64,000 nucleotides of DNA from Terriglobia bacterium (lineage in GTDB: Bacteria; Acidobacteriota; UBA6911). This document shows, piece after piece, positions 36,344 through 54,489 of the stretch (its first letter is position 1; each line of letters begins with the position of its first letter). The notes under the pieces are model-generated. The model was not told where the DNA came from, made no database searches, and worked only from the letters and a program-made list of their open reading frames with translations. A program made the position numbers and the translations under genes. The DNA is taken from positions 1 through 64,000 of the forward strand of contig JAIQGI010000038.1 of NCBI GenBank assembly GCA_020072565.1, in the 5' to 3' direction.

Positions 36344-36370
36344 GCTTATGAAGCCCTCAACCGTCAAACC

Positions 36371-37831: not shown

Positions 37832-38784
37832 AAGGTCTTCCTCCTCAGGAGTGATGCGGGGATGCCAAAGCGATTCAGGCTCCTCAGACTGTCAGGAACT
37901 TGCGCCAGGATGCGCTCGATTTCGGCTTCCTCTTTCGCCTCAATCACAGATGCTATCGCCGATACCGCCTTTGCCCCCTGGTCGAGCACTCCGGGAGGCG
38001 GCCCGTAACAGCCGCGGCACGCGACACCGGAGGTCTGACAGCGCGTATCGCACCCTCCCCTGGTGACGGGACCCAGGCAGAGGAAGCCCTGTTCGAGATA
38101 GCAATTCTCCTGCTCGGGCTGCGCTGTAGCAATGCGCTTGAAGCTCGCGATCTTCTTCTCGTTCTTCTTGCGCGGACACTCGTCGCACTGGGTCTTTTCC
38201 GATGCCCCGACCACGGAACCCTTGGGCGGGAGTTGTCCGCTCACGATCGCCTGCACGACGTTCCAGATCTGCTTGGGTGTCGGCGGGCAACCGGGCAGGT
38301 AATAATCGACATCCACCACCTGGTCCAGGCATTTGACTGTGTCGTACATCTCGGGAATGGTAATTTCTCCTTCGGGCACCTGGGTTCTTGCCTGCGGTTC
38401 GACCTTTTCCGGATTCACCGTGGACGGCGAATCATGGTAGACCCGCTTGAAGATTTCCTTCTTGCTGAACAGGTTCGCGAGCCCGGGAATCCCTCCGATA
38501 TGGGCGCACGTGCCGAAAGCCACCAGGACCTTGGACTTCGCCCTCAGGAGGTGTGCCAGGTGCTCATTTTCCGAGTTTCGGACGGCACCGTGAAAGAGGG
38601 TCACATCGATGTGACCGTCCGGCATGGCTTCCACGTCCGCGTATTTGAAATCCGTGGCAATGGGCCAGAAAACGATATCTGCCGCCGCGGCAATATCCAG
38701 TATCTTCTCGTTCGTGTCCAGGATGGCCACATCGCAACCTCCACAGGCAGCCGCCCAGTATGATGCCAGCTTTAATTTTGCCAT
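37828..38784 (-). CDS. mvhG: [NiFe] hydrogenase small subunit (MvhG-like)
   Basis: 318 residues, cytosolic with no Tat signal. Cluster ligands include C14 and C17 (AACGGCDVA), Cys in FGTCAHIGG and in LPGCPPTP. The C-terminal half adds more cysteines (CDECPRK, CLGPVTRGGCDTRCQTSGVACRGCYGPPPG) for medial and distal clusters. This is the group 3c pattern. It relays electrons from the NiFe site to the MvhD-like protein. A 65-bp gap separates it from mvhD, the largest spacing inside the lower operon. Confidence 0.93.
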   Translation of the reverse strand: MAKLKLASYWAAACGGCDVAILDTNEKILDIAAAADIVFWPIATDFKYADVEAMPDGHIDVTLFHGAVRNSENEHLAHLLRAKSKVLVAFGTCAHIGGIPGLANLFSKKEIFKRVYHDSPSTVNPEKVEPQARTQVPEGEITIPEMYDTVKCLDQVVDVDYYLPGCPPTPKQIWNVVQAIVSGQLPPKGSVVGASEKTQCDECPRKKNEKKIASFKRIATAQPEQENCYLEQGFLCLGPVTRGGCDTRCQTSGVACRGCYGPPPGVLDQGAKAVSAIASVIEAKEEAEIERILAQVPDSLRSLNRFGIPASLLRRKTL

Positions 38785-38849: not shown

Positions 38850-39281
38850 TCAAGCAGGGATTTTTTTCTTACGTGCTGCCCTGAAACGTGCCGGTCCAAG
38901 TTTTCTCACATCCTCGGTGATCTGGTTCACGACCTGGGCCCACCGATCTCCCTCCGATGCCGAGACCCATTCCAGCCGGAACCTTCCCGGTTCGATGCCG
39001 TAATCGGCCAGCATTTTCTTAAAGAGCGCCATCCGGCGCATGGTCTTATAGTTTCCTTCGATGTAGTGGCAGTCCCCCGGATGGCAGCCGGCCACGAGGA
39101 CTCCGTCAGCGCCGTCCGCGAATGCCTTCAAGATGAAGGTCGGATCTACCCTGCCGGAGCACATCACGCGCAGCACGCGCACGTTAGGGGCATACTTGAT
39201 ACGCGCGGTTCCTGCAAGATCCGCACCGGTATAGGAACACCAGTTGCAGAGGATTCCCACGATCTTAGGCTCGAACGTCAT
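38850..39281 (-). CDS. mvhD: MvhD-like [2Fe-2S] linker protein
   Basis: 143 residues. It shows the MvhD/FrhD pattern: PKIVGILCNWCSYTGADLAGTARIKYAPNVRVLRVMCSGRVDP, FADGADGVLVAGCHPGDCHYIEGNYKT and a C-terminal helical region. Five conserved cysteines (LCNWC, MCSG, GCHPGDC) hold a [2Fe-2S] cluster. In Mvh-Hdr complexes this subunit docks hydrogenase onto HdrA. Its start lies inside the preceding gene, the NuoG-HdrA fusion (17-nt overlap), which suits a direct physical partnership. Confidence 0.95.
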   Translation of the reverse strand: MTFEPKIVGILCNWCSYTGADLAGTARIKYAPNVRVLRVMCSGRVDPTFILKAFADGADGVLVAGCHPGDCHYIEGNYKTMRRMALFKKMLADYGIEPGRFRLEWVSASEGDRWAQVVNQITEDVRKLGPARFRAARKKKIPA

Positions 39282-41022
39282 ACAATACTCCTTCTATCTC
39301 GGCAAACAACTGCTCATCGGTAAAGTGCCTTGCCGTGATGGCAGCACTCGGGCAAGCCGCCGCGCACGTTCCGCATCCTTTGCATAGAACGTCGTTGATG
39401 ACGGAGATCTTCTTTTCCTCATCAAAGCTGATCGCCGACAGCGAACAAAGCGTGTTGCATATCCTACAGCCGGCGCACTTCTCCGCATCCACGACACTGG
39501 TTGCAGATTCAACCTCGATCTCACCCTTTGCCATCAGGGATTGAACCAGAGAGGCTGCTGCCGAGGCTTGGGCTACCGTATCAGGGATGTCCTTGGGGCC
39601 CTGGCATGCGCCTGCGATGAAGATCCCGTCGGTCGCGGTCGACACCGGAGCCAGTTTCGGATGCCTTTCCATGAAGAATCCGTTGCCGCAGCTGATATGG
39701 AATGTGCGTGCCAGCTGGGCAGCATCGTCGGCTGGACTGAGGCCTGTCGCCAGGACGACCATGTCCACGGGAATCCGTCGAACCTGGCCGACGAGAGTAT
39801 CTTCGACCCTGATTACCAGCTTGCCAACCTCCTTCTCGTTCAATGGGAAATCGGTGACCGAGGCGGCGCGTCCCCTGATGAACCGCACTCCCTCTTCCAG
39901 GAGCCGGTGATAAAACTCTTCATATCCCTTCCCGAAACAGCGCATGTCGATGTAGAAGTTGTAGACTTCGGCGCCGGTCTTCTCTTTGATCAGGTGCGCG
40001 AATTTCAGGGCATACATGCAGCAAACGCGGGAGCAATACTTGTTGTGGCGCTCGTCACGGCTTCCGACGCAGTGGATGATGCCGACCTGCTTGGGTTCCT
40101 TGGTGTTCGCGAGCAGTATTTTGCCGCCTGTCGGGCCGGAGGCGCTGTTCATCCTCTCAAACTCCAAGCCGGTGAGGACATCCTTAAATCTCCCGTAACC
40201 GTATTCGGGAATACTTTTGGGATCAGAGGGCTTGAAGCCCGTGGCCAGAATCACGGCGCCGACATCGATCTCCTCGACCTGATCGGTCTGCTGGTGGTCA
40301 ATCGCCTTGACCTCGCACACCTTCTCGCACACCTTGCACTCCCCCGTCTTGAAGTGGATGCACGAGTCGTGGTCGATGACGGGCTTGTGCGGGACCGCCT
40401 GCATGAACGGGATGGCTACTGGTGTCAGCGGGCCGAGCGGCAGGGCCTGACGGACCAACTCGGAATCGTTCTCGATGCGTATGGCTCCGGTCGGGCAGAC
40501 ATAGGCACATGCCCCGCAGGCGATGCACTGGGGAGAGGTCTCGCCATAGGCCGTCGAGACCTCACGAGTCGTGCCCCTGCCGAAAAAGCCGAGCACGTTG
40601 GCCCCGACGACGTCCGAGCAGACGCGCACACACAGCCCGCAAAGAATGCAGTCGTCGTCCCCGCGGCCGAATCTCGGCTCGACGATGCCGTAGTCCTTGG
40701 CGAGCTGCTCCAGGACAGGGACATGGCCGCAACGCGACATGAGCCATTCAATGATCAGCTTTCGATCCCTGCGCACGCGGTCGGAGTTGGTCAGCACCTC
40801 AATGCCGTTGGTTGCCGGATAATTGCAGGCCGTCACCATGCGAACCCGTTTGCCCGACCGCACCTCAACCGTGCAGATGCGGCAAACACCGTATGGCTCC
40901 AGGATCGGGTGATGGCAAAGCGTGGGAATTTTGATCCCCAGCTTCTCGGCGATTGCCAGTACCGGCGTTCTGTCTTCGGCTGTCGTCTCGATTCCGTCGA
41001 TCTTGAGCTTGATTGTTTTCAT
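39265..41022 (-). CDS. Fusion: NuoG/HoxU-type Fe-S domain + C-terminal half of HdrA
   Basis: 585 residues. Residues 1-75 are a [2Fe-2S] domain (C36, C47, C50, C66). Residues 80-115 occupy the usual His-Cys3 [4Fe-4S] position but keep only SRCGH. Residues 120-182 are a 2x[4Fe-4S] ferredoxin (C125-C135, C166-C176). From about 195 the sequence is HdrA after its N-terminal Rossmann part: PVAIPFMQAVPHKPVID, CKVCEKVC, GAVILATGFKP, EYGYGRFKDVLTGLEFERMNSASGPTGG, HCVGSRD, YCSRVCCM and GKGYEEFYHRLLEEGVRFIRGR. It ends with two more [4Fe-4S] motifs (C516-C526, C547-C557). No GxGxxG is present; that part is encoded at 47575-48447. The start overlaps nuoF by 4 nt. It likely bridges the diaphorase to the Hdr flavin. 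Confidence 0.9.
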   Translation of the reverse strand: MKTIKLKIDGIETTAEDRTPVLAIAEKLGIKIPTLCHHPILEPYGVCRICTVEVRSGKRVRMVTACNYPATNGIEVLTNSDRVRRDRKLIIEWLMSRCGHVPVLEQLAKDYGIVEPRFGRGDDDCILCGLCVRVCSDVVGANVLGFFGRGTTREVSTAYGETSPQCIACGACAYVCPTGAIRIENDSELVRQALPLGPLTPVAIPFMQAVPHKPVIDHDSCIHFKTGECKVCEKVCEVKAIDHQQTDQVEEIDVGAVILATGFKPSDPKSIPEYGYGRFKDVLTGLEFERMNSASGPTGGKILLANTKEPKQVGIIHCVGSRDERHNKYCSRVCCMYALKFAHLIKEKTGAEVYNFYIDMRCFGKGYEEFYHRLLEEGVRFIRGRAASVTDFPLNEKEVGKLVIRVEDTLVGQVRRIPVDMVVLATGLSPADDAAQLARTFHISCGNGFFMERHPKLAPVSTATDGIFIAGACQGPKDIPDTVAQASAAASLVQSLMAKGEIEVESATSVVDAEKCAGCRICNTLCSLSAISFDEEKKISVINDVLCKGCGTCAAACPSAAITARHFTDEQLFAEIEGVLYDVRA

Positions 41023-42860
41023 GCTGCATGACTCCTTGGAACCTTCTGGATTGCTTCACGCTTGCACACCTCGACGCAGGCGCCGCACTTGATGCACATC
41101 GTCTTGTCGAGCATATGCAGTTTCTTGACCTCTCCCATGATCGCCTTGGTCGAGCAACCGGCGACACAGGCGTGACAACCATCGCATTTTTCGGGGTCAA
41201 TGACGTATTCGATCAGATCTCTGCAGGCGCCCGCCGGGCATATGTGATCCTTGATGTGGGCGTCAAACTCATCCTTGAAGTACTGGATCGTGGACAGGAC
41301 CGGGTTGGATGCCGAAGTGCCGAGAGCGCACAGGCAACAATCCTGCATGACTGCTCCGATTTCGCGGAGAAGGTCGATGTCCTCGGGGCTGCCCTTGCCC
41401 TGGGTGATGCGGGTCAGGGCATCCAAAGAGGTTCTCAGCCCCTCGCGGCACGGCACACATTTGCCACAGGACTCCTCGGTGAGGAAGGAGATGAAGTATC
41501 GAGCCACTTCCACCATGCAGGTCTGATCGTCCATTACGATCATCCCTCCCGAGCCCATCATCGATCCGGCGCTGGTCAGGCTGTCGAAATCGACGGGCAT
41601 GTCCAGGAGCTCTTCCGGCAGGCAACCGCCCGACGGTCCTCCCGTCTGGACGGCTTTGAACTTGCGCCCTGCCGGGATGCCTCCTCCGATGTCGAATACG
41701 ATCTCGCGGAGCGTGATCCCCATCGGGACTTCAATCAAGCCCGTGTTGTTGACCTTGCCCACCATCGAGAAGACCTTGGTCCCGCTGCTTCCGTTCCAGG
41801 GGTTCTCGCTCACCTCGCCGGTGCCCATGGAAGCGAACCACTGCGCGCCGCGGTTGATGATGAGGGGCACATTGGCCCAGGTTTCCACATTGTTCAAGTT
41901 GGTGGGGCGGTTCTGGTAACCGTACTCGACGGTATGGATGTATTTGGCGCGGGGCTCGCCGACCCTGCCCTCCAGCGAAGCCATCAAGGCGGTGGACTCG
42001 CCGCAGACAAAGGCGCCGGCGCCCTGGACGATCTCGATGTCAAAATCCATTCCGGTGCCCAGGATGTCCTTGCCAAGAAATCCATAGTCCTGCGCCTGTT
42101 CGATTGCTTTGAGCAGGCGCTCACGGGCGAGCGGGTATTCGTGCCTGATGTAAATGAAGCCTTCCCTGCATCCGATGGCACGCGCACCGATGACCATGCC
42201 TTCGAGCACGGCATGCGGATCGCTCTCGATGATGCTTCGGTCCATGAAGGCGCCGGGATCACCCTCATCGGCGTTGCAGACTATGACCGGTTCGATCCCC
42301 CTCGCCTTGGCAGCATGGCGGCAGGTCTCCCACTTGATGCCGGCCGGGAATCCACCGCCGCCGCGCCCTCGCAATCCCGAACGCTTGATCTCGGCTATGA
42401 TCTGCTCCGGCGTCATCTCGGTTACAGCCTTCCCCAGGGCCATGTATCCGTCGACGGCGATATAGTCATTGATCCGTTCGGGATCGATGATGCCGCGGTT
42501 GCGGAGCACGACCAGCTTTTGCTTGGCGAAGAAGGGAATATCCTTCAGGGCGGGGATGGGGCTCTTCTCGGCCGGCGGCGAGTACATGAGGTTCTTTAGC
42601 GGCCGTCCCTTGAGGAGGTGCTCCTGGACCAGGTGGGCAGCCGACTTCTGATTGACGCCGCAGTAGAAGACGCCGTCCGGTTGCACGATCACTATGGGTC
42701 CTTGAGCGCAAAATCCCTGGCAACCTGTTCGAATTATCTGGACCTCGCCTGCCAGACCTTGCTTCTGCACTTCGGTCTCCAGGGCCTTAGCCGTAGCAAA
42801 CGAGTCGCCAGAAACACATCCTGTCCCCGCGCAAACTAGAACATGTGTGCGAAATGCCAT
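41019..42860 (-). CDS. NuoF/HydB-like NADH-binding diaphorase subunit
   Basis: 613 residues. The N-terminal thioredoxin-like [2Fe-2S] domain has C10, C15, C47 and C51. The FMN/NADH domain has RGRGGGGFPAGIKW (about 165-177), NADEGDPGAFMDR and GAGAYVCGEST-like GAGAFVCGEST. The [4Fe-4S] site follows (ESCGKCVPCREG, C465/C468/C471, with a downstream C511). A C-terminal ferredoxin has C559-C569 and C589-C599. This is the HydB architecture of bifurcating [FeFe] hydrogenases and of NAD-reducing hydrogenases. It should exchange electrons with NAD(H). Confidence 0.94.
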   Translation of the reverse strand: MAFRTHVLVCAGTGCVSGDSFATAKALETEVQKQGLAGEVQIIRTGCQGFCAQGPIVIVQPDGVFYCGVNQKSAAHLVQEHLLKGRPLKNLMYSPPAEKSPIPALKDIPFFAKQKLVVLRNRGIIDPERINDYIAVDGYMALGKAVTEMTPEQIIAEIKRSGLRGRGGGGFPAGIKWETCRHAAKARGIEPVIVCNADEGDPGAFMDRSIIESDPHAVLEGMVIGARAIGCREGFIYIRHEYPLARERLLKAIEQAQDYGFLGKDILGTGMDFDIEIVQGAGAFVCGESTALMASLEGRVGEPRAKYIHTVEYGYQNRPTNLNNVETWANVPLIINRGAQWFASMGTGEVSENPWNGSSGTKVFSMVGKVNNTGLIEVPMGITLREIVFDIGGGIPAGRKFKAVQTGGPSGGCLPEELLDMPVDFDSLTSAGSMMGSGGMIVMDDQTCMVEVARYFISFLTEESCGKCVPCREGLRTSLDALTRITQGKGSPEDIDLLREIGAVMQDCCLCALGTSASNPVLSTIQYFKDEFDAHIKDHICPAGACRDLIEYVIDPEKCDGCHACVAGCSTKAIMGEVKKLHMLDKTMCIKCGACVEVCKREAIQKVPRSHAA

Positions 42861-42886: not shown

Positions 42887-43270
42887 TTAGCCGGTTGTTT
42901 CACAACCGCTCGCAAGCGCGAAATCGGTAACGATTTTCCCCTCGATCACGTGTTCTTTGAGCACCCTCACTATCTTGTCGGGCTTTAGCTCCACATATTT
43001 GACAGGGGATGCGCCTGTCAACTCCACGGTAGCCATGGGTTCACGGCTGCAAAGCCCTGCGCAACCCGAGGTGGTCACGATGACATCAGTTAACTTCAGG
43101 TTTTCAATCTCCTTCAGCAGCGCTCCCATGACTTCACGCGCTCCGGCCGCGATGCCGCAGGTGCCCATGTGCACGGTCACCCGGGCACGCGCCGTGCCGG
43201 ACCGCAGCGTCAAAGTCTGCTTCCCCTCTTCGCGTATGCGCTTCAGGTCTTCAATGGACAGTCTCGGCAT
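42887..43270 (-). CDS. Thioredoxin-like [2Fe-2S] ferredoxin subunit
   Basis: 127 residues. A short helix (LSIEDLKRIREEGK) precedes a thioredoxin-fold ferredoxin-like domain: VTVHMGTCGIAAGAREVM, then VIVTTSGCAGLCSREPMATVEL. Visible cysteines are one in the first motif and two in GCAGLC, with another near the C-terminus. Small proteins of this type sit between NuoE- and NuoF-like genes in bifurcating hydrogenase operons. The start overlaps the NuoE-like gene by 20 nt. Cluster ligation is uncertain with this cysteine pattern. Confidence 0.85.
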   Translation of the reverse strand: MPRLSIEDLKRIREEGKQTLTLRSGTARARVTVHMGTCGIAAGAREVMGALLKEIENLKLTDVIVTTSGCAGLCSREPMATVELTGASPVKYVELKPDKIVRVLKEHVIEGKIVTDFALASGCETTG

Positions 43271-43739
43271 GTGTCGCCTCCTTTGCCCGGTAACGTTTGA
43301 TTATTCTTGGAACGGAAGTTTGCTTCAGCTTGCCATGCACGTCGTGCGCCACGGTCATCACTGGAGCCAGTCCACAACAACCGACGCAGTTGACCGTGTC
43401 GAGACTAAACTGCATGTCAGGCGTGGTCTCGCCCCGCTTGATCTTCAGTTCGCGTTCGAGCGCCTCGACCAGCTGGGGCCCGCCCTGGATGTTGCAGGCG
43501 GTGCCCATGCAGACGTGGACCTGGTAGCGACCCACGGGCTTCAGGCTGAAGGCCCGGAAAAATGTTGCGATCGAGAGAATAGACGTCAGCGGTGTGCTGA
43601 TCCGGATCGACAACTCCTCCAGGACTTCTCTGGGAAGGTAGCAATACTCTTCCTGGCAGTCGAGCAGGATTGCGATCATATGGCCCTTCTTGCCACCGTG
43701 CTGGTCTACGATCTCGCGAACCCTAGTAACGTCAACCAT
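43251..43739 (-). CDS. NuoE/HydC-like [2Fe-2S] subunit
   Basis: 162 residues from the ATG at 43739; a frame from 43754 adds five residues. The N-terminal helical bundle is followed by a thioredoxin-like [2Fe-2S] domain: LLDCQEEYCYLPREVLEELS, LTSILSIATFFRAFSLKPVGRYQVHVCMGTACNIQGG and VNCVGCCGLAPVMTV. The four cluster cysteines (CMGTAC, CVGCC) are present. It is the partner of the NuoF-like subunit in NAD(H)-linked hydrogenases. Confidence 0.94.
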   Translation of the reverse strand: MVDVTRVREIVDQHGGKKGHMIAILLDCQEEYCYLPREVLEELSIRISTPLTSILSIATFFRAFSLKPVGRYQVHVCMGTACNIQGGPQLVEALERELKIKRGETTPDMQFSLDTVNCVGCCGLAPVMTVAHDVHGKLKQTSVPRIIKRYRAKEATHAETVH

Positions 43740-43757
43740 GTTCGGCCTCCACAATCT

Positions 43758-45056
43758 CTAGTGCAATTTGGGCGCAATGCCCGGCCTGCCCAGGCCGGCT
43801 TCGCCCTTACGTATGGACTCACGCAGCGTGGCCAGTCCATCCGGTGAGGCCGGGTAGGCACTGGAGGAGCGGAGGACCTGCGTGTTCACCTCAAAGCCCT
43901 CGCTCCCCACGCAATGCTTAAAGCGGATATCCAGATCAGGGTGGCCGGCCAGCAGCACCATGAGGGTTGTCTCCAGGTCGCCTACCGGCGCCCTGTCGAT
44001 GTGGTGGTACTGGAAGATGGCCCGGACGCGACTTCCGGCGCCTGGTCTGGATTCAATCTCAATTCTGCCTCCCGCCGCGCGCGCGGCCTCACTGAGCAGC
44101 GAGAGGCCCAATCCCACTCTGCGCGTCGTGCGAGTGGTATAGAACGGATCCGTGGCCCTGGCGATTGCTGCCGCATCCATCCCGCGTCCATTGTCCCGCA
44201 CCTCAATAATCAGCTGGTCCGAGGACGGATACTCCAGCAGGTCTATTTCGAGCGCGGTGGCTCCGGCCTCGATGGAGTTTTGTGCAATATCGAGGATGTG
44301 CAACGCGAGGTCCTCCATCGGCCTTCCTCCTCCGAGAATCGCCCTGCCGTCTTCCTCTACAAACGCGCGCCGCAACTCGGCGAGCGTCGGCTCCGCCAGC
44401 AGCACGAATGTCACCGCCCTGCCTACATCCTTGGGCTCGTGCGCGTCGGAAGCGCAGACAATCGGGAACTCACCTTTCGGTGCGAATGCCGCACGACCCG
44501 CCGGAAGAGCCGTACGGCACGAGATTTCCAGAGCATCGAGCGCCAGGCCTTTTGGGATCATGCCGAGCTGGCCGATGATGCCGTTTCTTTCCCGGTCGAC
44601 ATGGGAGGCAACGGCGAGCCCCGCGACATCGTGGATTGCGGTAACGACCCTGTCCACACTGAGTGTCGTCGCGCCGGACAGGAGGTGTTCGTCAAAGCCG
44701 AGTACCTCTGCATGCTCGTTGGCAATTACCTGGGGACCGAAGGCTCGTTCATCGTTATGCCCGGGCAATGACCTGTAAATCCTTGACTGCAGCGCCAGCG
44801 CTGCCTCGCTGCCGGGCAGCAAGCCGAGGATGTGAGCCTCCTCCGCGGTTGTGATCTCAATGCCGGCGATCACCGCCATGCCGGCGGTATGCCCCGCCCT
44901 CTCCACCGCCGCCACATTCCCGGCCGAGTTGTGATCGCAGACGGCTACCGCGTCCAGCCCGGCGCAGATGGCCGCATCAATCAACCCCGCGGGGTGCATG
45001 TCGAGCACCGCACAGGGCGAGAGGCAACTATGCAGGTGAGGATCGATCACAAACAC
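43758..45056 (-). CDS. PHP domain fused to GHKL-type ATPase
   Basis: 432 residues. The N-terminal PHP phosphoesterase domain (about 1-225) has DPHLHSCLSPC, VCDHNS, AGIEITTAEE, SHVDRERNG and CASDAHEP, so the metal-binding His/Asp set looks complete. From about 245 a histidine-kinase-type ATPase follows: N-box LHILDIAQNSIEAGA, G1 VRDNGRGMD and GLGLSLLSEAARAAGG, but no phospho-acceptor His domain. A ~90-residue tail with one Cys (RFKHCVGSEG) ends the protein. Separate PHP and ATPase genes lie next to [FeFe] hydrogenase genes in anaerobes; here they are one polypeptide. It is probably regulatory. Enzymatic activity is unproven. Confidence 0.85.
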   Translation of the reverse strand: MFVIDPHLHSCLSPCAVLDMHPAGLIDAAICAGLDAVAVCDHNSAGNVAAVERAGHTAGMAVIAGIEITTAEEAHILGLLPGSEAALALQSRIYRSLPGHNDERAFGPQVIANEHAEVLGFDEHLLSGATTLSVDRVVTAIHDVAGLAVASHVDRERNGIIGQLGMIPKGLALDALEISCRTALPAGRAAFAPKGEFPIVCASDAHEPKDVGRAVTFVLLAEPTLAELRRAFVEEDGRAILGGGRPMEDLALHILDIAQNSIEAGATALEIDLLEYPSSDQLIIEVRDNGRGMDAAAIARATDPFYTTRTTRRVGLGLSLLSEAARAAGGRIEIESRPGAGSRVRAIFQYHHIDRAPVGDLETTLMVLLAGHPDLDIRFKHCVGSEGFEVNTQVLRSSSAYPASPDGLATLRESIRKGEAGLGRPGIAPKLH

Positions 45057-45058
45057 CT

Positions 45059-45412
45059 TCAGGCCGACCTCCTTCCCCTGACGCCCCGGTCATAAAGAAT
45101 GCCAGCCACATCAAAAGCCGGCAATTCGGTGACGATGATCGGTATGTGTTCCTCTTCCGCCCTGGCCACGGCAGCCTCTTCCGGCTGGCGGCCATTCACC
45201 ACCACGATGCCGGCCAAGCCCTTGAGTTGAGCAACCGCCACGATGTTCACGTGTTTCTGCATCGTCACCCACAGATCCCCCTGGCGACTGTTCCCCATCG
45301 TGTCCGAGAGCAGATCCGACGCATATCCGCCGCGCACTTCCCTCACGATCGCGGATGCGGCGCAGGCGATTACAGTTCCCTGGATCTGCTCGGAGGCTTC
45401 CGCAACGGTCAC
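45059..45412 (-). CDS. DRTGG domain protein (second copy)
   Basis: 117 residues. It starts with MTVAEASEQIQGTVIACAA, continues through YASDLLSDTMGNSRQGDLWVTMQKHVNIVAVAQLKGLAGIVVVNGR and ends PIIVTELPAFDVAGILYDRGVRG. This is the DRTGG fold, a small ligand-binding domain also found in phosphotransacetylases. It overlaps the [FeFe]-like gene by 4 nt and precedes the PHP-ATPase gene by 2 bp. Homologous to the protein at 47185-47547. The ligand is unknown. Confidence 0.85.
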   Translation of the reverse strand: MTVAEASEQIQGTVIACAASAIVREVRGGYASDLLSDTMGNSRQGDLWVTMQKHVNIVAVAQLKGLAGIVVVNGRQPEEAAVARAEEEHIPIIVTELPAFDVAGILYDRGVRGRRSA

Positions 45413-46737
45413 CGTGGCACTCCTTTCGTGGATGGCTGAAGCTGGATCAGGCGGGCGAGGTCCTCAACCCGGCTCGCAAGCTCGCGCTGCCAGAAGAAGG
45501 TACATGCTTCCCGCTCTACTTCTCCCAGGACCACGTCTTCGGCAAACGCCCGGCACGAAGGTGCGCCACAGGCGCCGCAGTCGACACCCGGCAGTTCCGA
45601 GATGAGCTGGTCACGCTCCCTCATCTTGGCAATGGCCCCGGAGATATTCTCGTCCAGCGGCCTGAGCGGCCGGCTGGTAAAAGGCTCGTCCATCAGAAAT
45701 TTCCCCTCCCGGTAGTCCTGCGCCACTTCCTTCCGTTCCACGACCGGCCCTGCTGGGAGTTTCTGCCTCAGTTTGACTATTTTCCCCCGTGCCACGTACG
45801 GATTCTCGACCGTGAGACAACCGCCCACGCATCCCTCGGGGCAGGCGTGACATTCGATGAATGAGTACTTCCGGAGTTTCCCCTTGACGATATCGTCGAG
45901 TATCCGGATTACATTGGGCAACCCGGCCACCGACAGCGTGTTTTCTGCGGGCACGGACCTCGGCAAACCACCCAGAAAGGCCCAACTCACCCCGGATGCG
46001 GTCTCTCCTGCATCCATCCTCACCTCCGCCTCTCGAACCTTGGAGACAGCCGGAGCCAGAGTTTGATACAGGTCGATGATGGAAACCGCCGCGTCCAAAT
46101 ATGAGTTTGACATGCCGGGGTGTTCAAGGATGGCTACGATCTTGGCGGGACACGGAGTGATGTAGACGGCGCCGATCCGGTCTGTAGCCAACCCGGTCTC
46201 CGCTGACTTGCGCGCTTTTGCATCTCTGGCTGAGATCTCGCGCGGGGACAAGATCGGCAGCAATTGCCCGACGAATTCGGGGTACTTCACCTGCACCAGA
46301 CGCACGACTGTGGGGCAGAAGGACGAGATCAACGGAGACTGGCCCCGATACTCGCTCAGGAAGATCTCGGTAGCCACACTCACCGCGTCACAGGCTGGAG
46401 ACAGGGGTTCCACGTCATCGAATCCGCAGCGCTGCAAGGCCGCTACGACGATCCCAGGGGGCAGGTCCTCATCGAATTGCGCATATAAGGCAGCCGACGG
46501 TATCGCCACCGCGTAATCGAACTTGGAGAGGTCAGCCATGTGGTCCGTTAGAGGTACGATGGCGCCCGCCTCGCACACCTTGATGCACTCTCCGCAGTCG
46601 ATGCAGCGGTCGTCGAGCTTCATCGCCCGTCCCTTGCGAACTCGCACTGCCGCGGTGGGGCAAGCACGCATGCACGACCTGCAGCCATCGCATTTGTCGG
46701 GCACGAAGCGTAGAGAGTGGTGATATTGAGCTGCCAC
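45409..46737 (-). CDS. [FeFe]-hydrogenase-like protein, probable sensor
   Basis: 442 residues. Two N-terminal [4Fe-4S] motifs (C16-C26, C45-C55) precede an Fe-hydrogenase large-subunit C-terminal domain. Counterparts of the H-cluster cysteines remain: C141 in SSFCPTVVRL (motif 1), C196 with K199 in TPCPAK (motif 2), C299 and C303 in ECHACPEGCVGG (motif 3). The motif contexts deviate from catalytic HydA, which has TSCCPxW, MPCxxKxxE and ACPGGCxxGGG. A C-terminal [4Fe-4S] element (GVDCGACGAPSC, 384-395) resembles Fes domains of sensory hydrogenases. It sits among regulatory proteins. A role in sensing H2 or redox state is likely but inferred. Confidence 0.88.
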   Translation of the reverse strand: MAAQYHHSLRFVPDKCDGCRSCMRACPTAAVRVRKGRAMKLDDRCIDCGECIKVCEAGAIVPLTDHMADLSKFDYAVAIPSAALYAQFDEDLPPGIVVAALQRCGFDDVEPLSPACDAVSVATEIFLSEYRGQSPLISSFCPTVVRLVQVKYPEFVGQLLPILSPREISARDAKARKSAETGLATDRIGAVYITPCPAKIVAILEHPGMSNSYLDAAVSIIDLYQTLAPAVSKVREAEVRMDAGETASGVSWAFLGGLPRSVPAENTLSVAGLPNVIRILDDIVKGKLRKYSFIECHACPEGCVGGCLTVENPYVARGKIVKLRQKLPAGPVVERKEVAQDYREGKFLMDEPFTSRPLRPLDENISGAIAKMRERDQLISELPGVDCGACGAPSCRAFAEDVVLGEVEREACTFFWQRELASRVEDLARLIQLQPSTKGVPR

Positions 46738-46746
46738 GCGGGTTCC

Positions 46747-47181
46747 TTATGCAATCTGGTTGACACGGATATAGAGCTGCGTTCCCTTGGAAACCTCCGA
46801 AGTAATCTCGAACTCATCCGCAATTTTTTTGATGTTCGGCAGTCCCATTCCGGCCCCGAATCCCATTTCTTGCATTTCGGGCGTTGCGGTCGAATAGCCC
46901 TCCTGCATTGCCAGATCGATGTCCTCGATGCCGGGACCCTCGTCCTTGACCTCGATGGTTACAGCCTGCGGGCTGACCCTGAGCGATATCGTCCCACGCA
47001 GGGCATACATGACGACGTTCATTTCGGCCTCGTAGGAGGCAATCGCGACGCGGCGCACAACCTCTGGATCCGCGCCGAGGCGCTTTAAGATATCCATAAT
47101 CGCCGTCGAGATCCTGCCGGCGTTGGTGAAGTCCCTGCCCGCGATTGGATACACACTCTTGAGTTCCTCCGGCGGATCCAT
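46747..47181 (-). CDS. RsbW-like serine kinase / anti-sigma-type ATPase
   Basis: 144 residues forming one GHKL ATPase domain: N-box EAEMNVVMYA, G1 VKDEGPGIEDIDLAM and G2 region GFGAGMGLPNIKKIADEFEI. It lacks a dimerisation/phospho-acceptor domain, which is the RsbW/SpoIIAB layout. It could phosphorylate a partner or simply sequester it. No sigma factor or anti-anti-sigma gene adjoins it. The neighbours are a DRTGG gene (3-bp gap) and the [FeFe]-like gene (9-bp gap), a set known from operons of bifurcating [FeFe] hydrogenases. Confidence 0.88.
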   Translation of the reverse strand: MDPPEELKSVYPIAGRDFTNAGRISTAIMDILKRLGADPEVVRRVAIASYEAEMNVVMYALRGTISLRVSPQAVTIEVKDEGPGIEDIDLAMQEGYSTATPEMQEMGFGAGMGLPNIKKIADEFEITSEVSKGTQLYIRVNQIA

Positions 47182-47184
47182 GAC

Positions 47185-47547
47185 CTACCTGCCGGACATG
47201 GCCATGTAAAGCAGCCCCACCGCCTCGAACATCGGGAGCGGCGTTCCCAGCAGCGGGATTTTTCTCTCCCGGGCCAGCGCCAAAACCGATTCATCCGGTG
47301 TTCTTCCTTGCACAAACACCACGCCGCAAAGGCCTGCCACTAAAGCGGTTCTTATCACCTGGGGGCTGGCGAGGCTCGTCAGAAGTAGCATCCCCCGCTT
47401 GCTCTGGATGAGGACGTCGCTCATCAGGTCCGCTGCGACCACGTGCTCCACCTGCGGGGAAAGGTCTTCGCCACAGAACGCCTTCGCTCCCAGCAGGTCG
47501 CGGATCTGAGTCAGACTCACCGCCTTCAGGTTCACCAATGTAGGCAT
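47185..47547 (-). CDS. DRTGG domain protein (first copy)
   Basis: 120 residues: LVNLKAVSLTQIRDLLGAKAFCGEDLSPQVEHVVAADLMSDVLIQSKRGMLLLTSLASPQVIRTALVAGLCGVVFVQGRTPDESVLALARERKIPLLGTPLPMFEAVGLLY in outline, read here as separate DRTGG blocks. The fold should bind a small ligand. It begins 27 bp after the HdrA N-half stop and ends 3 bp before the RsbW-like start. Only weakly similar to the second copy, so the two may bind different ligands. Confidence 0.85.
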   Translation of the reverse strand: MPTLVNLKAVSLTQIRDLLGAKAFCGEDLSPQVEHVVAADLMSDVLIQSKRGMLLLTSLASPQVIRTALVAGLCGVVFVQGRTPDESVLALARERKIPLLGTPLPMFEAVGLLYMAMSGR

Positions 47548-47574: not shown

Positions 47575-48447
47575 CTATTCCTTGCCGGGAGGTACACTGC
47601 CGTGAGGGCCGTCCCCGACCGCAGTGTTCCCGATCACCAGCTTGCCTTTACGTATCACGCGCGCAGCAGGGATTTTCCTCGCGGGGCATGATTCCCAGCA
47701 GAGCCCGCATCCCGTGCATTTGGCATGATCCACGTATGTGGCCTTGTGCCGCAGCTTCACTTTGAAATTGCCGACAAAGCCACGGACCTCTTCCACTTCG
47801 CTGGAGGACATCAGCTTGATGTTGGCGTGGTTCCCCACCTGCACCATCTTGGGAGTAAGGATGCACGCAGCACAGTCCAGCGTGGGAAACGTCTTGTCGA
47901 ACTGCGCCATATGCCCGCCGATCGAAGCTTCCTTCTCGACGAGGTAGACGGTCCGCCCCGACTCAGCGATATCCAATGCAGCCTGGATGCCGGCGATGCC
48001 ACCCCCCACCACGAGGGCGGCATTGTTGACAGGGACCGTCTTGCGGGGCAGTTCGGCCAGAAACGTGGCCTTCGCGACGGACGCGGCGATGAGCGCCTTG
48101 GCCTTCTCGGTCGCAGCGTTGGGATCCACCGTAACCCACGAGCAATGCTCCCGGATATTCGCCATCTGGAAAAGGTAGCGGTTCAGATCCGCCCTCTCGC
48201 AGGCGCCCCGGAAAGTCGGTTCGTGCATGAGCGGGGAACAGGAGGCAACGACAATGCGATCCAGCCCGGCGTTCTTGATATCGTCCTGGATCAGGAGCTG
48301 GCCAGGATCGGAGCACATGAACTTGTATTCCCGGGCTATGACCACATTCGGAAGCGTGCCGGCAAACGCGGTCACTTCCGGAACGTTTACTTTGCCCGAG
48401 ATATTGGTGCCGCAGTGACAAACGTATACGCCGATCCGGACACTCAT
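47575..48447 (-). CDS. hdrA: N-terminal half of heterodisulfide reductase subunit A (split HdrA)
   Basis: 290 residues; full HdrA is usually around 650 or more. It contains the standard N-terminus (IGVYVCHCGTNI), FMCSDPGQLLIQDDI, VVASCSPLMHEPTFRGACERADLNRYLFQMANIREHCSWV, the FAD-binding VVGGGIAGIQAALDIAESG and FDKTFPTLDCAACILTPKMV. One ferredoxin-like motif (CTGCGLCWESCP) follows, after which it stops in an unrelated Gly-rich tail. The rest of HdrA is encoded at 39265-41022. Both halves are needed for a complete flavin domain, so they should associate. Overlaps hdrB by 4 nt. Confidence 0.93.
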   Translation of the reverse strand: MSVRIGVYVCHCGTNISGKVNVPEVTAFAGTLPNVVIAREYKFMCSDPGQLLIQDDIKNAGLDRIVVASCSPLMHEPTFRGACERADLNRYLFQMANIREHCSWVTVDPNAATEKAKALIAASVAKATFLAELPRKTVPVNNAALVVGGGIAGIQAALDIAESGRTVYLVEKEASIGGHMAQFDKTFPTLDCAACILTPKMVQVGNHANIKLMSSSEVEEVRGFVGNFKVKLRHKATYVDHAKCTGCGLCWESCPARKIPAARVIRKGKLVIGNTAVGDGPHGSVPPGKE

Positions 48448-49322
48448 ACGACCTCCTCGGCAAATCGGGCCACGACATCGGTTGCCGGCACGATGCAGCG
48501 CTGCAGTCCCAGCTGTTTGGATTCCAGAGCGAATGCCAGTCCCATCAGTTGCGTGAAGTACACAATCGGAATGCGAAAATCCGTCTTATAATACTTGTTG
48601 ATGCGGGCTTGGTAAGCATCGAGGTTAATCTGGCACAGAGGGCAAGTAACCGCGATACAGTCGGCCTTGTCCTGCTGCGCGCAGAGCAGAAGATTGCGGC
48701 ACAACCGCAGGGCCACATCCTCGCGCGTTCCCATCAGTGAACCGCCGCAACACATGGTCTTCATCGGGAAGTAGGTCGGTGTAGCTCCAAGCGCCTCCAG
48801 AAGCCGGTCCAGCATTTTGGGGTTGTCCGTGTCATCTTCAATGCCATAGGGCCTGGCGATCTGGCACCCATAATAGGGGGCGACCCGTAAGCCCGTGAGC
48901 GGACGCTTCACCAGACCCTTCACACGCTCGAGCGCCGCGCCCTCGACCACCACTTGCAGGAAGTGCTTGATGACAGCTCCCCCGTCATAGCGCAATCCGG
49001 CCTCGCCGAGCGCCTGGTCCACCTTATTCTTGATATCGGGAGATTCCGCCAGGTACGCGTCCGTCTTGCGGAGGTTGGTGAAACAAGCACTGCAAGCCGT
49101 GACGATGGGATCTCCGTTACGATGGGCCTGGGCCAGGTTGCGGGCGCTAAGGCAGAAAGACAGAATCTCGTTCACGTTCATGTACGCCGTCGCGCCGCAG
49201 CAGTTCCAGTCCTCGATCTCAACCAAATCGATCCCGAGACATGAGGCAACGGCATGTACCGATTCCCCGTACGGTAGCGCAGTTGCGTCCAACGAACATC
49301 CTGGATAGTAGGAATAGCGCAT
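48444..49322 (-). CDS. hdrB: Heterodisulfide reductase subunit B
   Basis: 292 residues with two complete CCG domains. First: YYPGCSLD, NCCGATAY and TACSACFTNL. Second: YYGCQIARP, MCCGGSLMG and TCPLCQINL. In HdrB these bind two non-cubane [4Fe-4S] clusters that reduce disulfides by one-electron steps. All ligands look intact, so a disulfide or another thiol-type acceptor is plausible. Bacteria lack coenzyme M-coenzyme B, so the substrate is unknown. Starts at the hdrC stop (1-nt overlap). Confidence 0.95.
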   Translation of the reverse strand: MRYSYYPGCSLDATALPYGESVHAVASCLGIDLVEIEDWNCCGATAYMNVNEILSFCLSARNLAQAHRNGDPIVTACSACFTNLRKTDAYLAESPDIKNKVDQALGEAGLRYDGGAVIKHFLQVVVEGAALERVKGLVKRPLTGLRVAPYYGCQIARPYGIEDDTDNPKMLDRLLEALGATPTYFPMKTMCCGGSLMGTREDVALRLCRNLLLCAQQDKADCIAVTCPLCQINLDAYQARINKYYKTDFRIPIVYFTQLMGLAFALESKQLGLQRCIVPATDVVARFAEEVV

Positions 49323-49903
49323 TACTCACCCCCCAGTTCTTGCGCCTTCGCCACAATCTTGCAAAGGCCATCCATGTCACGAACCCGGGATCCCCCCAGG
49401 GGAAGACGTCCATGCATGCGGAGGTGTATGGCGATCGGCGCCGCTGCGACTGCACCCAGTGGATTTGTAGACAGCATGTACCGCGTCATCAGAGCCGTCT
49501 CGCGGTTGCGGCCATACTTGTTGACGATGTCGACGAAGTGTCTCGAGAGAGCGCGAGCCCGCTTGCTCCGCTGCCGATTTTCACGGATGGCCATGCGCTT
49601 GAGCATGTACATGATGTCCGTGATCTTGATCTGTTGCGGGCAACGGTGCGCACATTGATAGCATGATGCGCAAGTCCATATGGTGAGGCTATCCAAGATG
49701 CGATCACGCATCCCCGCCCGGACCATGGCGAAAATCTGCCGTGGTGTCTCTTCCATGGCCCAGGACACCGGACATGATCCACTGCACGTGCCGCATTGGA
49801 TGCAGTCCTTTATCTTCTCACCTCCGTAAATGTTGTAGACCTCATCCAGAAATCCCGGGTCCATACTCTGTTCGTAGAGAACAGTCTGATGCACTCCAGT
49901 CAT
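49322..49903 (-). CDS. hdrC: Heterodisulfide reductase subunit C
   Basis: 193 residues, soluble, with two [4Fe-4S] motifs: CIQCGTCSGSCP and CASCYQCAHRCP. A helical C-terminus follows (MLKRMAIRENRQRSKRARALSRHFVDIVNKYGRNRETALM in outline). HdrC passes electrons from HdrA to HdrB. It is the first gene of the operon. The ATG is preceded by AGGAGGG. Upstream lies an 850-bp divergent gap. Confidence 0.95.
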   Translation of the reverse strand: MTGVHQTVLYEQSMDPGFLDEVYNIYGGEKIKDCIQCGTCSGSCPVSWAMEETPRQIFAMVRAGMRDRILDSLTIWTCASCYQCAHRCPQQIKITDIMYMLKRMAIRENRQRSKRARALSRHFVDIVNKYGRNRETALMTRYMLSTNPLGAVAAAPIAIHLRMHGRLPLGGSRVRDMDGLCKIVAKAQELGGE

Positions 49904-50753: not shown

Positions 50754-52736
50754 ATGGGCAGATCGACCATCCGGGGCAGGCTGATCAGAAGTTTCTCTAT
50801 AGCGATTCTTATTCCTTCTTTGATCACGATGGTGGTGGGCATCAGAGTAATCGAGCAGCAGATCTACGCGCAGGCCCAGGCACAGGTAAACTCGGACCTC
50901 GAAGGCGCCATGGAGATTTGGCGGCATAACCTCGAGAGGCTCGAAAATGCGATCCGAATCCATGCCACGCGCATGGTTATCTACGGCGCCCTGGCCCGTA
51001 ATGATCCCGGCGGACTGGGACCAGAAATGAATCGAGTGCGCGCAGCGGAAGGGCTCGACGTCCTGACTCTGCTGGATACTTCCGGCAAGGTTTTTTACCG
51101 CACCCTCAACCCCGCGCTGGTGGGAGACATCGAGATCGATGATGAGTTGATAGGCGGCGTTTACAAGAAAAAGGCCCCCCTTTCGGGGGTTGTAATTGTT
51201 GCCGCGGACGAGCTTGCCCGCGAGTCTCAGGATCTCAGACAGCAGGCAAGCATGGAGATTACCTTCACACCCAGAGCCGGCCCCCCCGGGAAGGAGAGGG
51301 TAACCGATGGAATGATGCTCAAGGCGGCGGCTCCGGTGACCACGGCTGACGGCCGTTTCGTGGGCGTGTTGTACGGGGGTACGCTCATCAATCGCAACTA
51401 TGAGGTAGTGGACAAGATACGAAGTATCGTGTTCAGACAGGAGTCGTACAAAAATCGAGAGGTGGGCACAGCCACCGTCTTCCAGGATGATGTACGCATA
51501 TCGACCAACGTCAGGAATGCCGACGGCACGCGCGCGATAACCACCCGGGCCTCGGCCGAAGTTGCTGACGATGTTCTTCAGCGCAACCGAACCTGGAGAG
51601 GCCGTGCATTCGTGGTCAACGACTGGTACATCGCAGCTTACGCGCCCATTCGGGACATAGCGGGGAAAACGATCGGCATGCTTTACGTCGGCACGCTCGA
51701 GCAGCCTTATCGCGATAGCCTGTGGCGGACATTATTCACGTTTCTGGGCATCACTCTCTTGGGCATGATACTGGTAAGCATTGTGGGCATCAAGGTGGCT
51801 CAGCGGATTTCTGAGCCTATTCAAGCCATGGCTGCAGCAGCCCGGCGAGTGGCCGAGGGTGACTACTCCCATAAGGTCGAAGTCCTCTCCAGCGACGAGA
51901 CCGGCTATCTGGCCGAGTGCTTCAACCGGATGACCCTCGAGCTTGCCCGTGCGACACAGGAGCTGAGGCAATGGGCAGAAAGCCTGGAGACCAAAGTGGA
52001 GGAACGAACAGCTCAGGTGAAGGCCATGCAAGGCCAGTTGGTCCAGGCCGAAAAGCTGGCCGCCATCGGGAAACTCGCCGCCGGAGTCGCCCATGAAATC
52101 AACAACCCGCTCACCGGCGTTCTTACCAATAGCAGCCTCATGCTCCAGGATCTGGCTCCCGATGACCCCAGGCGTGATGACTTGCAGACCATCGTCGACG
52201 AGACCCTGCGCTGTCGTAAGATCGTGAAGGGATTGCTCGATTTTGCCAGGCAGACCAAACCCCTGAAGCAGGCAGTCAACATAAACCAAATCGTTGAGGA
52301 CGCACTCAACCTGGTGAGGAACCAGGCCTCGCTCAGCAACATCACGCTTCAGACGGAATTGCAGGCCGATCTTCCCACGATCATGGTGGACAAAGACCAG
52401 ATGCGGCAAGTGGTCCTGAATATCGTCATAAACGCCGCGGAAGCCTTGCCGAACGGGGGTGAGATCCGGGTCATTTCGCGGCTGGATCGCGGCGCCAATC
52501 TGGTATGTCTGAGTGTCGCCGACACAGGACCGGGCATTCCGGAAGCGGTCAGGACCAGGCTCTTCGAACCCTTCTTTACCACCAAGGCGAGCGGTACAGG
52601 CCTGGGTCTTGCCATTGCTTATGGCATTATGGAGCGCCATAGGGGCACGATCACAGTTGCCAGTGCTGCCGGCCAAGGTACCACGATCAGTCTTCGCCTT
52701 CCCGTGAACAGCAAGGAGGGAGATGAACAATCCTGA
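50754..52736 (+). CDS. Cache-HAMP histidine kinase
   Basis: 660 residues. Membrane helices at about 13-33 and 327-349 bracket an extracytoplasmic sensor of Cache type (KVFYRTLNP, GVLYGGTLINRNYEVVD, FVVNDWYIAAYAPIRD). A HAMP domain follows (about 348-402), a coiled coil, then HisKA with phospho-acceptor His447 (GVAHEINNPLTG). The ATPase domain has N-box NIVINAAEALPNGG, G1 ADTGPGIPE and TGLGLAIAYGIM. It overlaps the NtrC-type gene by 14 nt, so it is that regulator's cognate kinase. Sensor homologous to that at 56166-58223. Confidence 0.94.
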   Translation: MGRSTIRGRLIRSFSIAILIPSLITMVVGIRVIEQQIYAQAQAQVNSDLEGAMEIWRHNLERLENAIRIHATRMVIYGALARNDPGGLGPEMNRVRAAEGLDVLTLLDTSGKVFYRTLNPALVGDIEIDDELIGGVYKKKAPLSGVVIVAADELARESQDLRQQASMEITFTPRAGPPGKERVTDGMMLKAAAPVTTADGRFVGVLYGGTLINRNYEVVDKIRSIVFRQESYKNREVGTATVFQDDVRISTNVRNADGTRAITTRASAEVADDVLQRNRTWRGRAFVVNDWYIAAYAPIRDIAGKTIGMLYVGTLEQPYRDSLWRTLFTFLGITLLGMILVSIVGIKVAQRISEPIQAMAAAARRVAEGDYSHKVEVLSSDETGYLAECFNRMTLELARATQELRQWAESLETKVEERTAQVKAMQGQLVQAEKLAAIGKLAAGVAHEINNPLTGVLTNSSLMLQDLAPDDPRRDDLQTIVDETLRCRKIVKGLLDFARQTKPLKQAVNINQIVEDALNLVRNQASLSNITLQTELQADLPTIMVDKDQMRQVVLNIVINAAEALPNGGEIRVISRLDRGANLVCLSVADTGPGIPEAVRTRLFEPFFTTKASGTGLGLAIAYGIMERHRGTITVASAAGQGTTISLRLPVNSKEGDEQS

Positions 52737-54132
52737 CAGCCCCAGAGTCCTGGTGGCGGACGATGAACTGTCCGTGTGCAAGTCCTGCGAGAAAATCCTG
52801 CGCCGACACGGCTGCGAGGTTAGAACGGTTCTTTCCGGCAAGGAGGCGCTCGCCCTGTTGGAACACGAGCCCTTCGACCTTGTCTTCACTGATCTGAAGA
52901 TGGCCGAGGTAGGGGGCATGGAGCTGCTTCAAGCCCTGCAGACTCGTTTTCCCGACATCGTGCCCATAGTAATCACTGGGTATGCTTCCGTGGCTTCCGT
53001 GGTCGAAACCATGAAGCTCGGGGCCTTCGATTATCTCCCCAAGCCCTTTACCCCGGCCGAGATGATCGTTGTGGTCACCCATGCCTGGGAGAAGCGGAAG
53101 CGTATCCTCGAAGCCCGCGCGGCAGCCAGCGGGGAGCCCGTCGAAACCTTCTCCGGCATGGTGGGCCGAAGTCCAAAGATGCAGCAGGTCTACAGCCTGA
53201 TCCGGAAAGTCGCGCCCACCTCGAGCACGGTCCTGATCATCGGTGAAAGCGGGACAGGCAAGGAACTCGTGGCCCGCGCCATTCACAGTCTGAGCCCCAG
53301 GCAGGACCGGCGTTTCTTCGCTGTGGACTGTGGGACACTCTCTGCAAACCTTCTCGAAAGTGAGCTGTTCGGCCACGTCAGGGGAGCCTTTACCGGCGCT
53401 GTCGTCACCAAACGCGGCATTTTCGAAGTAGCGGACCACGGGACGGTATTCTTGGACGAAATCTGCAACGTCGATTCCGAGATCCAGGGCAGATTGCTGC
53501 GCTTCATCCAGGAACGAGAATTCCTCCCTGTCGGCGGCACGGAGCCGAAGCGCGTAGACGTTCGTCTCGTCTTTGCCACAAACCGAGATTTGACCCGGAT
53601 GGTTTCCGAGGGAACGTTCAGGGAAGACTTATACTATCGGCTCCATGTGTTCCCGATCTACCTTCCTCCCCTCCGGGATCGGCCGGAAGACATCCCGTTG
53701 CTTGTGCGCTACCTACTACTGAAAATCAGGGGACGCAGCGGCAAAAACATCACCACGATCTCAGACCCGGCACTAAAGCTCTTGATAGAGCACAACTGGC
53801 CCGGCAATGTGCGCCAACTTGAGAGCGCCCTCGAGTGGGCCGTAATTTCCTGTGAGGATGATGTGCTGCAACCATCTAATTTTCCACGGTTTGCGCATTC
53901 GCAGGCGCAAACTGCCGACCTGTCGACGCCTCGCAGCAATGCGGAATTCCTGACATTGAAAAAGAAGATCAAGGAACAGGCGGTTTCCGAGCTTGAACGT
54001 GACTTTGTCCTGGCCGCCCTCCAAAGGAATCAATGGAATGTCACCCGGGCCGCGCAGGAAGTAGGCATCGCCCGTCCAAATTTCCAAGCCCTCATGCGCA
54101 AGCACGGGATTCGCGCCAGTGGGGAAAACTAG
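52723..54132 (+). CDS. NtrC-family sigma-54-dependent response regulator
   Basis: 469 residues. Receiver domain (8-122) with D57 and K107. The AAA+ domain has Walker A GESGTGKE (174-181), the sigma-54-contacting GAFTGA loop (221-226) and Walker B TVFLDE (241-246). The Fis-type helix-turn-helix is at the C-terminus (LERDFVLAALQRNQWNVTRAAQEVGIARPNFQALM in outline, about 425-463). AAGGAGGG precedes the ATG. A consensus sigma-54 promoter lies about 280 bp downstream of its stop, in front of the two-receiver gene, so that gene is a likely direct target. Confidence 0.95.
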   Translation: MNNPDSPRVLVADDELSVCKSCEKILRRHGCEVRTVLSGKEALALLEHEPFDLVFTDLKMAEVGGMELLQALQTRFPDIVPIVITGYASVASVVETMKLGAFDYLPKPFTPAEMIVVVTHAWEKRKRILEARAAASGEPVETFSGMVGRSPKMQQVYSLIRKVAPTSSTVLIIGESGTGKELVARAIHSLSPRQDRRFFAVDCGTLSANLLESELFGHVRGAFTGAVVTKRGIFEVADHGTVFLDEICNVDSEIQGRLLRFIQEREFLPVGGTEPKRVDVRLVFATNRDLTRMVSEGTFREDLYYRLHVFPIYLPPLRDRPEDIPLLVRYLLLKIRGRSGKNITTISDPALKLLIEHNWPGNVRQLESALEWAVISCEDDVLQPSNFPRFAHSQAQTADLSTPRSNAEFLTLKKKIKEQAVSELERDFVLAALQRNQWNVTRAAQEVGIARPNFQALMRKHGIRASGEN

Positions 54133-54187
54133 ACGTTTGAATCTGATCTTAATGGCGCCGATGGTGGCAAGCCCACCTGCCCCTGGG

Positions 54188-54226
54188 TGTATTTACTTTG
54201 AATACACTGTATGTGAGACTCATACA
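54188..54226. promoter_or_regulatory. Tandem dyads, candidate enhancer for the NtrC-type activator
   Basis: Two 19-bp dyads fit TGTAT-N9-ATACA: 54188-54206 (TGTATTTACTTTGAATACA) and 54208-54226 (TGTATGTGAGACTCATACA). Their centres are 20 bp apart, about two helical turns, so both face the same side of the DNA. They lie roughly 190-225 bp before the sigma-54 promoter, the normal distance for an enhancer. A degenerate half-site (TGCCT-N9-ATACA) is at 54298-54316. Confidence 0.65.
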
Positions 54227-54385
54227 TACCTGTGGATGCCTGTTCATCAAATATTGCCGTATTTGCGCCCGATCCCTGGCTGCGGCAACCACCCGAGTGC
54301 CTATTTTCGATATACACCTGGAGTTAGAGCGGCGTCCTGGCCCTGACTTGACTTCTCATTAAGTCCAATTACATAAATCACTTAC

Positions 54386-54408
54386 AGTGCCTCATCCCGC
54401 AAGGCACT
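54386..54408. promoter_or_regulatory. Promoter-proximal dyad
   Basis: AGTGCCT (54386-54392) and AGGCACT (54402-54408) form a perfect 7-bp inverted repeat with a 9-nt spacer, just upstream of the -24 element. It could bind an accessory regulator. It differs from the TGTAT-N9-ATACA dyads. Confidence 0.5.
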
Positions 54409-54411
54409 GAC

Positions 54412-54427
54412 TGGCACACCTCTTGCT
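54412..54427 (+). promoter_or_regulatory. Sigma-54 (-24/-12) promoter
   Basis: TGGCACACCTCTTGCT matches the consensus TGGCACR-N4-TTGCW at every defined position. GG is at 54413-54414 and GC at 54425-54426. Transcription should start near 54437, about 50 bp before the ATG of the two-receiver gene. The adjoining gene encodes a complete sigma-54 activator. Confidence 0.88.
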
Positions 54428-54489
54428 GTAATCCCAGTTGAAGAATGTTAGAAGCAGTGGAACCAAATCAGTAAGGAATGGAGGTCATT

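Follow-up and report, generated by a model that had tools for sequence, protein, structure and literature searches.

In A. woodii, the GHKL-type accessory gene hydE (Awo_c27000) encodes a protein that reportedly does not belong to the active enzyme and may function in assembly or signaling (PMC3315566). The HydS/HfsB proteins, which contain a PAS domain, have been proposed as H2 sensors, and deletion of hfsB alters fermentation in several bacteria (PMC5707799; PMC8924675), a result that suggests regulation (PMC5707799). A term search of the 2022 Bfu family paper returned no discussion of a sensory or kinase role (PMC9304861). Here, we analyze a five-gene module in a 64,000-nucleotide stretch of a Terriglobia bacterium genome (contig JAIQGI010000038.1; referred to as the window). 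In the portions of the open-licence literature covered by our search we found no description of this module; an earlier account may exist elsewhere. If our reading of it is correct, one module would regulate H2-, formate-, and Hdr-linked bifurcation.

Organization of the operon

The module is part of a 16-gene operon on the minus strand, running from position 49903 to 35846 with intergenic gaps of -20 to +65 bp. The first three genes encode an HdrC-like 4Fe-4S protein (49322 to 49903; ORF list, Pfam, and sequence comparison), an HdrB-like CCG protein (48444 to 49322; Pfam), and the N-terminal half of HdrA, equivalent to HdrA2 positions 1 to 256 (47575 to 48447; sequence comparison). The module follows, with DRTGG protein 1, which carries an invariant Ser and Thr (47185 to 47547; Pfam DRTGG, E = 1e-7; conservation), an RsbW/SpoIIAB-like GHKL ATPase with the N-box E-A-E-M-N (46747 to 47181; Pfam HATPase_c_2, E = 4e-12), an [FeFe]-hydrogenase-like protein, hereafter the FeFe-like protein (45409 to 46737; Pfam Fe_hyd_lg_C, 2e-27, FeS, 2e-13, and two 4Fe-4S motifs), DRTGG protein 2 (45059 to 45412; Pfam DRTGG, E = 6e-6), and a protein that joins a PHP phosphoesterase domain to a DHp-less GHKL ATPase domain (43758 to 45056; Pfam PHP at E = 1e-4, just under the curated cut-off, PHP_C, and HATPase_c at 3e-16).

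Downstream of the module are genes for a NuoE/HydC-like [2Fe-2S] subunit (43251 to 43754; Pfam), a HydD-like small thioredoxin-fold protein (42887 to 43270; Pfam), and a NuoF/BfuB-like diaphorase (41019 to 42860). The closest solved relative of the diaphorase is NiFe-Bfu subunit B (7t2r); the match to 7t2r_B is full length (E = 1.5e-230), and the BfuB hallmark regions, an N-terminal thioredoxin-like and a C-terminal 2x[4Fe-4S] region, are present. The next gene joins a HoxU-type N terminus to the HdrA C-terminal part, equivalent to HdrA2 positions 238 to 640 (39265 to 41022), and is followed by genes for an MvhD-like protein (38850 to 39281), VhuG-like small and VhuA-like large [NiFe] subunits (37828 to 38784 and 36371 to 37831; both by sequence comparison), and a probable hydrogenase maturation protease (35846 to 36367); the names of the MvhD-like protein and the protease come from their sequences and their place in the operon. 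Another maturation protease gene, HyaD-like and named from its sequence only, lies at 55736 to 56233 on the minus strand.

The first-pass annotation had described a row of five genes between Hdr and diaphorase genes, and the ORF list and Pfam scan returned the same coordinates and domains, all on the minus strand, with HdrC-HdrB-HdrA(N) on one side and NuoE-NuoF on the other. Because the module separates the two HdrA halves, the genes that flank it are likely to specify a single complex and to enclose the module. HdrA N-terminal pieces of 280 to 314 aa also occur in about 20 of the compared loci (drawn from the best 80 of 403 relatives plus loci of the window's family). We found no description of a split-HdrA arrangement around such a module in the parts of the open-licence literature searched.

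Distribution of the module and its partner enzymes

From the 403 relatives found in a scan of GTDB species genomes, the best 80 loci were taken; with duplicates removed and loci of the window's family added, the compared set consisted of 79 loci and the window. The same gene order was found in loci of at least seven phyla and is thus not a chance arrangement, and the RsbW gene lies directly upstream of the FeFe-like gene in 74 of the 79 other loci in this set (best 80 of 403 plus family). The partner enzymes vary: the 79 loci carry [FeFe] HydABC (in Bacillota only), Hdr/[NiFe] genes, formate dehydrogenase (FDH), or HdrA of full length, and some have no such enzyme. At least 18 of the 24 loci from Bacillota have NuoE or NuoF nearby, and at least 8 have catalytic HydA; the 55 other loci have NuoE or NuoF in at least 34, a [NiFe] large subunit in at least 23, HdrB in at least 21, and FDH in at least 9, all of these counts being lower bounds since many contigs are short. 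Catalytic HydA was found near the module in 0 of the 55 non-Bacillota neighborhoods, many of them on short contigs. Across this range of partners, the module goes with bifurcating cores of the NuoE/NuoF type rather than with a single catalyst. The earlier view that such genes typically accompany bifurcating [FeFe] hydrogenases is supported in Bacillota, and a specific tie to [FeFe] hydrogenases is not supported; on comparing neighborhoods of the FeFe-like protein (79 loci; best 80 of 403 plus family), gene order proved conserved and partner enzymes varied.

The same genome contains a second copy of the module (L020), on contig C2 at about 111400 to 119000, before NAD-linked FDH genes. This cluster encodes a DRTGG protein, a DRTGG-RsbW fusion, an FeFe-like paralogue (C2:112902-114155), NuoE, and NuoF, together with an FDH-like molybdopterin protein. 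In a tree of FeFe-like proteins, the window protein falls, with full support, among Hdr/NiFe loci of its own family. The labels for partner enzymes are clustered on this tree yet switch repeatedly, with 27 changes versus a shuffled mean of 49; contigs that end short of the partner genes account for some of these, and true partner exchanges are therefore fewer than 27.

The position between the HdrA halves, the tight operon, and the many [4Fe-4S] clusters would also fit a set of structural or electron-transfer subunits, in which the FeFe-like protein wires the Hdr and diaphorase clusters and the small proteins also belong to the complex. We regard this as unlikely, since in four loci (L073, L089, L097, and L101) the module occurs with neither NuoE/NuoF nor Hdr genes nearby, its kinase and phosphoesterase active sites are conserved, and the A. 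woodii HATPase HydE is reported to lie outside the active enzyme (PMC3315566).

The FeFe-like protein and H-cluster assembly genes

The predicted model of the FeFe-like protein scored highly (pLDDT 93.9, pTM 0.91), and its best structural matches are [FeFe] hydrogenases. Its H-domain keeps C141, C196, C299, and C303, the four cysteines that ligate the [4Fe-4S] portion of an H-cluster, and these are kept in all 80 rows of the alignment. The protein also bears a PF04060 cluster and two 4Fe-4S motifs; across 53 rows, 14 Cys are invariant and C22 is nearly so, with C19 of the first ferredoxin motif varying. The proton-relay Cys of the L1 motif is Phe140 in the window protein and Cys in 0 of the 80 rows; most non-Bacillota lineages have Phe, Tyr, His, Val, or similar and many Bacillota members Ala, as against 13 of 13 catalytic HydA proteins of the loci examined that keep the Cys. 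The position of M353 is occupied by Thr or Ser, rarely Ala, and the L2-motif Lys is conserved in 93% of FeFe-like proteins. A Pfam scan detected no PAS domain in the window protein.

We then considered the whole genome (7.46 Mb, 98% complete, 3.8% contaminated). A PF02906 profile search matched two proteins only, the window FeFe-like protein and its paralogue of the same kind, and no catalytic HydA, so the catalytic [FeFe] subunit noted as missing from the operon is absent genome-wide. Searches for the maturases HydE, HydF, and HydG were judged by curated cut-offs, with a positive T. maritima control: HydG was not found, HydF gave GTPase-domain matches only and HydE weak radical-SAM-type matches only, both far below the cut-off. 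This genome-wide check, which the first-pass annotation had called for, thus counts against sensing at an H-cluster. HypD is present; a [NiFe] enzyme can therefore be matured, and the genome is probably unable to assemble an H-cluster. Given the missing maturases, the FeFe-like protein itself presumably lacks one.

HydG and HydA were compared across 42 module-bearing genomes (31 non-Bacillota and 11 Bacillota). Among the former, HydG occurs in 4 (L033, L035, L036, and L072), with HydA over the cut-off in the same 4, and 27 of 31 have neither; the completeness of the 42 genomes is not given, which makes single absences weak and the agreement of two independent markers the stronger point. The 11 Bacillota genomes have HydG in 6 and HydA in 8. 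Since most non-Bacillota module genomes appear unable to build an H-cluster, metagenome surveys should leave PF02906 matches of this kind out of their hydrogenase counts.

Could the FeFe-like protein nevertheless hold a full H-cluster and, like sensory HydS, report H2 to the kinase? The four cluster cysteines and the L2 Lys (93%) are kept, Ala is found at the relay position in many members from Bacillota, some of whose genomes have HydG, and TmHydS retains an active H-cluster with Ala at that position (PMC10055695). HydE, HydF, and HydG are absent from the window genome, however, HydG is missing from 27 of 31 non-Bacillota module genomes, and a residue such as Phe, Tyr, His, or Val takes the relay position in most of those lineages. 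That the window protein senses H2 at an H-cluster is thus unlikely, and as an account of the module we hold it to be highly improbable.

Kinase, DRTGG, and PHP proteins

In the alignment across loci, the N-box Glu and Asn of the RsbW-like protein are conserved at 100%, as are the His/Asp/Glu ligand residues of the PHP domain; we take the Glu to be the catalytic residue of SpoIIAB and the PHP residues to be metal ligands. In domain numbering, Ser32 and Thr46 of DRTGG1 are each conserved at 100%, and Ser25 and Thr39 of DRTGG2 at 97% and 100%. A PDB sequence search gave no convincing DRTGG relative. In other proteins, DRTGG domains are regulatory, as in the CBS-DRTGG region of a pyrophosphatase.

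DRTGG1 and RsbW are fused in 9 loci (among those from the best 80 of 403 relatives plus family); apparent fused forms in L034-L036 were over-extended ORFs in GC-rich DNA and were not counted. A natural DRTGG1-RsbW fusion was modeled at pTM 0.58 with the domains not placed relative to each other, and hence gives no confident interface. Two further fusions, RsbW-FeFe-like in L109 and FeFe-like-DRTGG2 in L100, occur in single loci from MAGs and could be assembly errors. The PHP and HATPase domains, fused in the window, are separate genes in most loci. Four loci of the window's bacterial family (L027, L028, L029, and L030) carry, downstream of HydABC, a fusion of HisKA-HATPase with a related FeFe-like domain. 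In a Spirochaetales locus (L097:9103-11299), a receiver-domain protein, RsbW, and the FeFe-like protein are encoded in a row without genes for a bifurcating enzyme.

The RsbW-like sequence is closest to SpoIIAB, and a structure comparison gave the same result for the homologous RsbW domain of the paralogous locus. One could therefore envisage a transcriptional partner switch, in which RsbW holds a sigma factor or other regulator that the FeFe-like protein frees, and the receiver protein beside RsbW in L097 would suit it. We consider this quite unlikely, as the module contains no sigma factor or STAS antagonist and the divergent two-component genes at 50754 to 54132 were not tied to it by any test. 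The divergent region as a whole (50754 to 55689, plus strand) encodes a histidine kinase, a sigma-54-type response regulator, and a double-receiver protein, and possibly serves transcriptional control. The best match to a sigma-54 site before hdrC was 9/12, about chance level in 950 bp, and was rejected.

A role in biogenesis, with the ATPases and the FeFe-like protein loading clusters or flavin into the diaphorase core, would agree with the constancy of the NuoE/NuoF core as partner across three enzyme classes, and the A. woodii authors allow assembly or signaling for HydE (PMC3315566). A GHKL kinase with a phosphoesterase is, however, an unusual set for cluster loading, and the HisKA fusions point to signaling, making an assembly factor distinctly unlikely in our estimation.

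Proposed mechanism

Module integrity, conservation, partner enzymes, and the absence of H-cluster assembly genes were computed; the roles of sensor, kinase, substrate, and phosphatase, and the output, we infer from protein families and conservation. On this basis, we propose, at about an even chance of being right, that this conserved module works as a phosphorylation switch under redox control, serving bifurcating enzymes of the NuoE/NuoF type (Bfu-like) and of the HdrA type. The FeFe-like protein would be the sensor, with a hydrogenase fold and several [4Fe-4S] clusters, one at the former H-cluster site, and no diiron part; it would accordingly respond to whether ferredoxin or the complex is reduced or oxidized, and not bind H2. 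It may gate the adjacent RsbW/SpoIIAB-type kinase, which would probably phosphorylate the DRTGG proteins at their invariant Ser or Thr. The PHP domain would take the phosphate off again, and the state of the DRTGG proteins would then tune activity, assembly, or expression of the enzyme.

We count in favor of this switch the RsbW adjacency, the fusions, the conserved residues, the HisKA-fused siblings, the receiver locus, and the missing relay Cys and maturases; against it, the DRTGG Ser and Thr may be ligand-binding residues instead of phosphate acceptors. The regulatory role suggested at first reading is plausible. It had been framed as sensing of H2 or redox state: the H2 part, through an H-cluster, is not supported, HydE, HydF, and HydG being absent, and the sensor and phospho-switch part fits the intact kinase and PHP sites, the fusions, and the FeFe-like/histidine kinase fusions in siblings. 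The broader proposal, that the [FeFe] fold, reused without its diiron center, serves as a [4Fe-4S] redox sensor and drives a Ser/Thr phosphorylation switch on DRTGG proteins that controls bifurcation in three enzyme classes and many phyla, is tentative and, we think, somewhat more apt to fail than to hold.

Comparison with known systems

Like the module, A. woodii hydE places a GHKL ATPase gene inside a bifurcating hydrogenase operon, but that operon, as described in the part of the source available, has five genes with a catalytic [FeFe] HydA and without DRTGG, RsbW, FeFe-like, or PHP genes. The group C sensory [FeFe] proteins (TmHydS, RaHydS, and HfsB) share with the FeFe-like protein the hydrogenase fold, the retained cluster Cys, and the lost relay Cys; they differ in having a PAS domain and, in the case of TmHydS, a working H-cluster (PMC10055695), whereas the window has neither PAS domain nor maturases. 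BfuT, of group C3 [FeFe], is encoded beside BfuABC in Hydrogenedentota (PMC11406978) and, as in the window, sets an FeFe-like regulator next to a bifurcating core; it is a single protein with a fused PAS or histidine kinase and is accompanied by a catalytic [FeFe] enzyme, in contrast to five separate genes with NiFe/Hdr in the window. The window NuoF-like subunit matches NiFe-Bfu subunit B of the Bfu family over its full length, but the accessible text of the family paper (PMC9304861) includes no hybrid of MvhAGD, split HdrA, and HdrBC and no such module. With the SpoIIAB/RsbW kinases, finally, the window RsbW shares the fold and the N-box; their STAS partner is missing from the module, and DRTGG proteins stand in the neighboring place.
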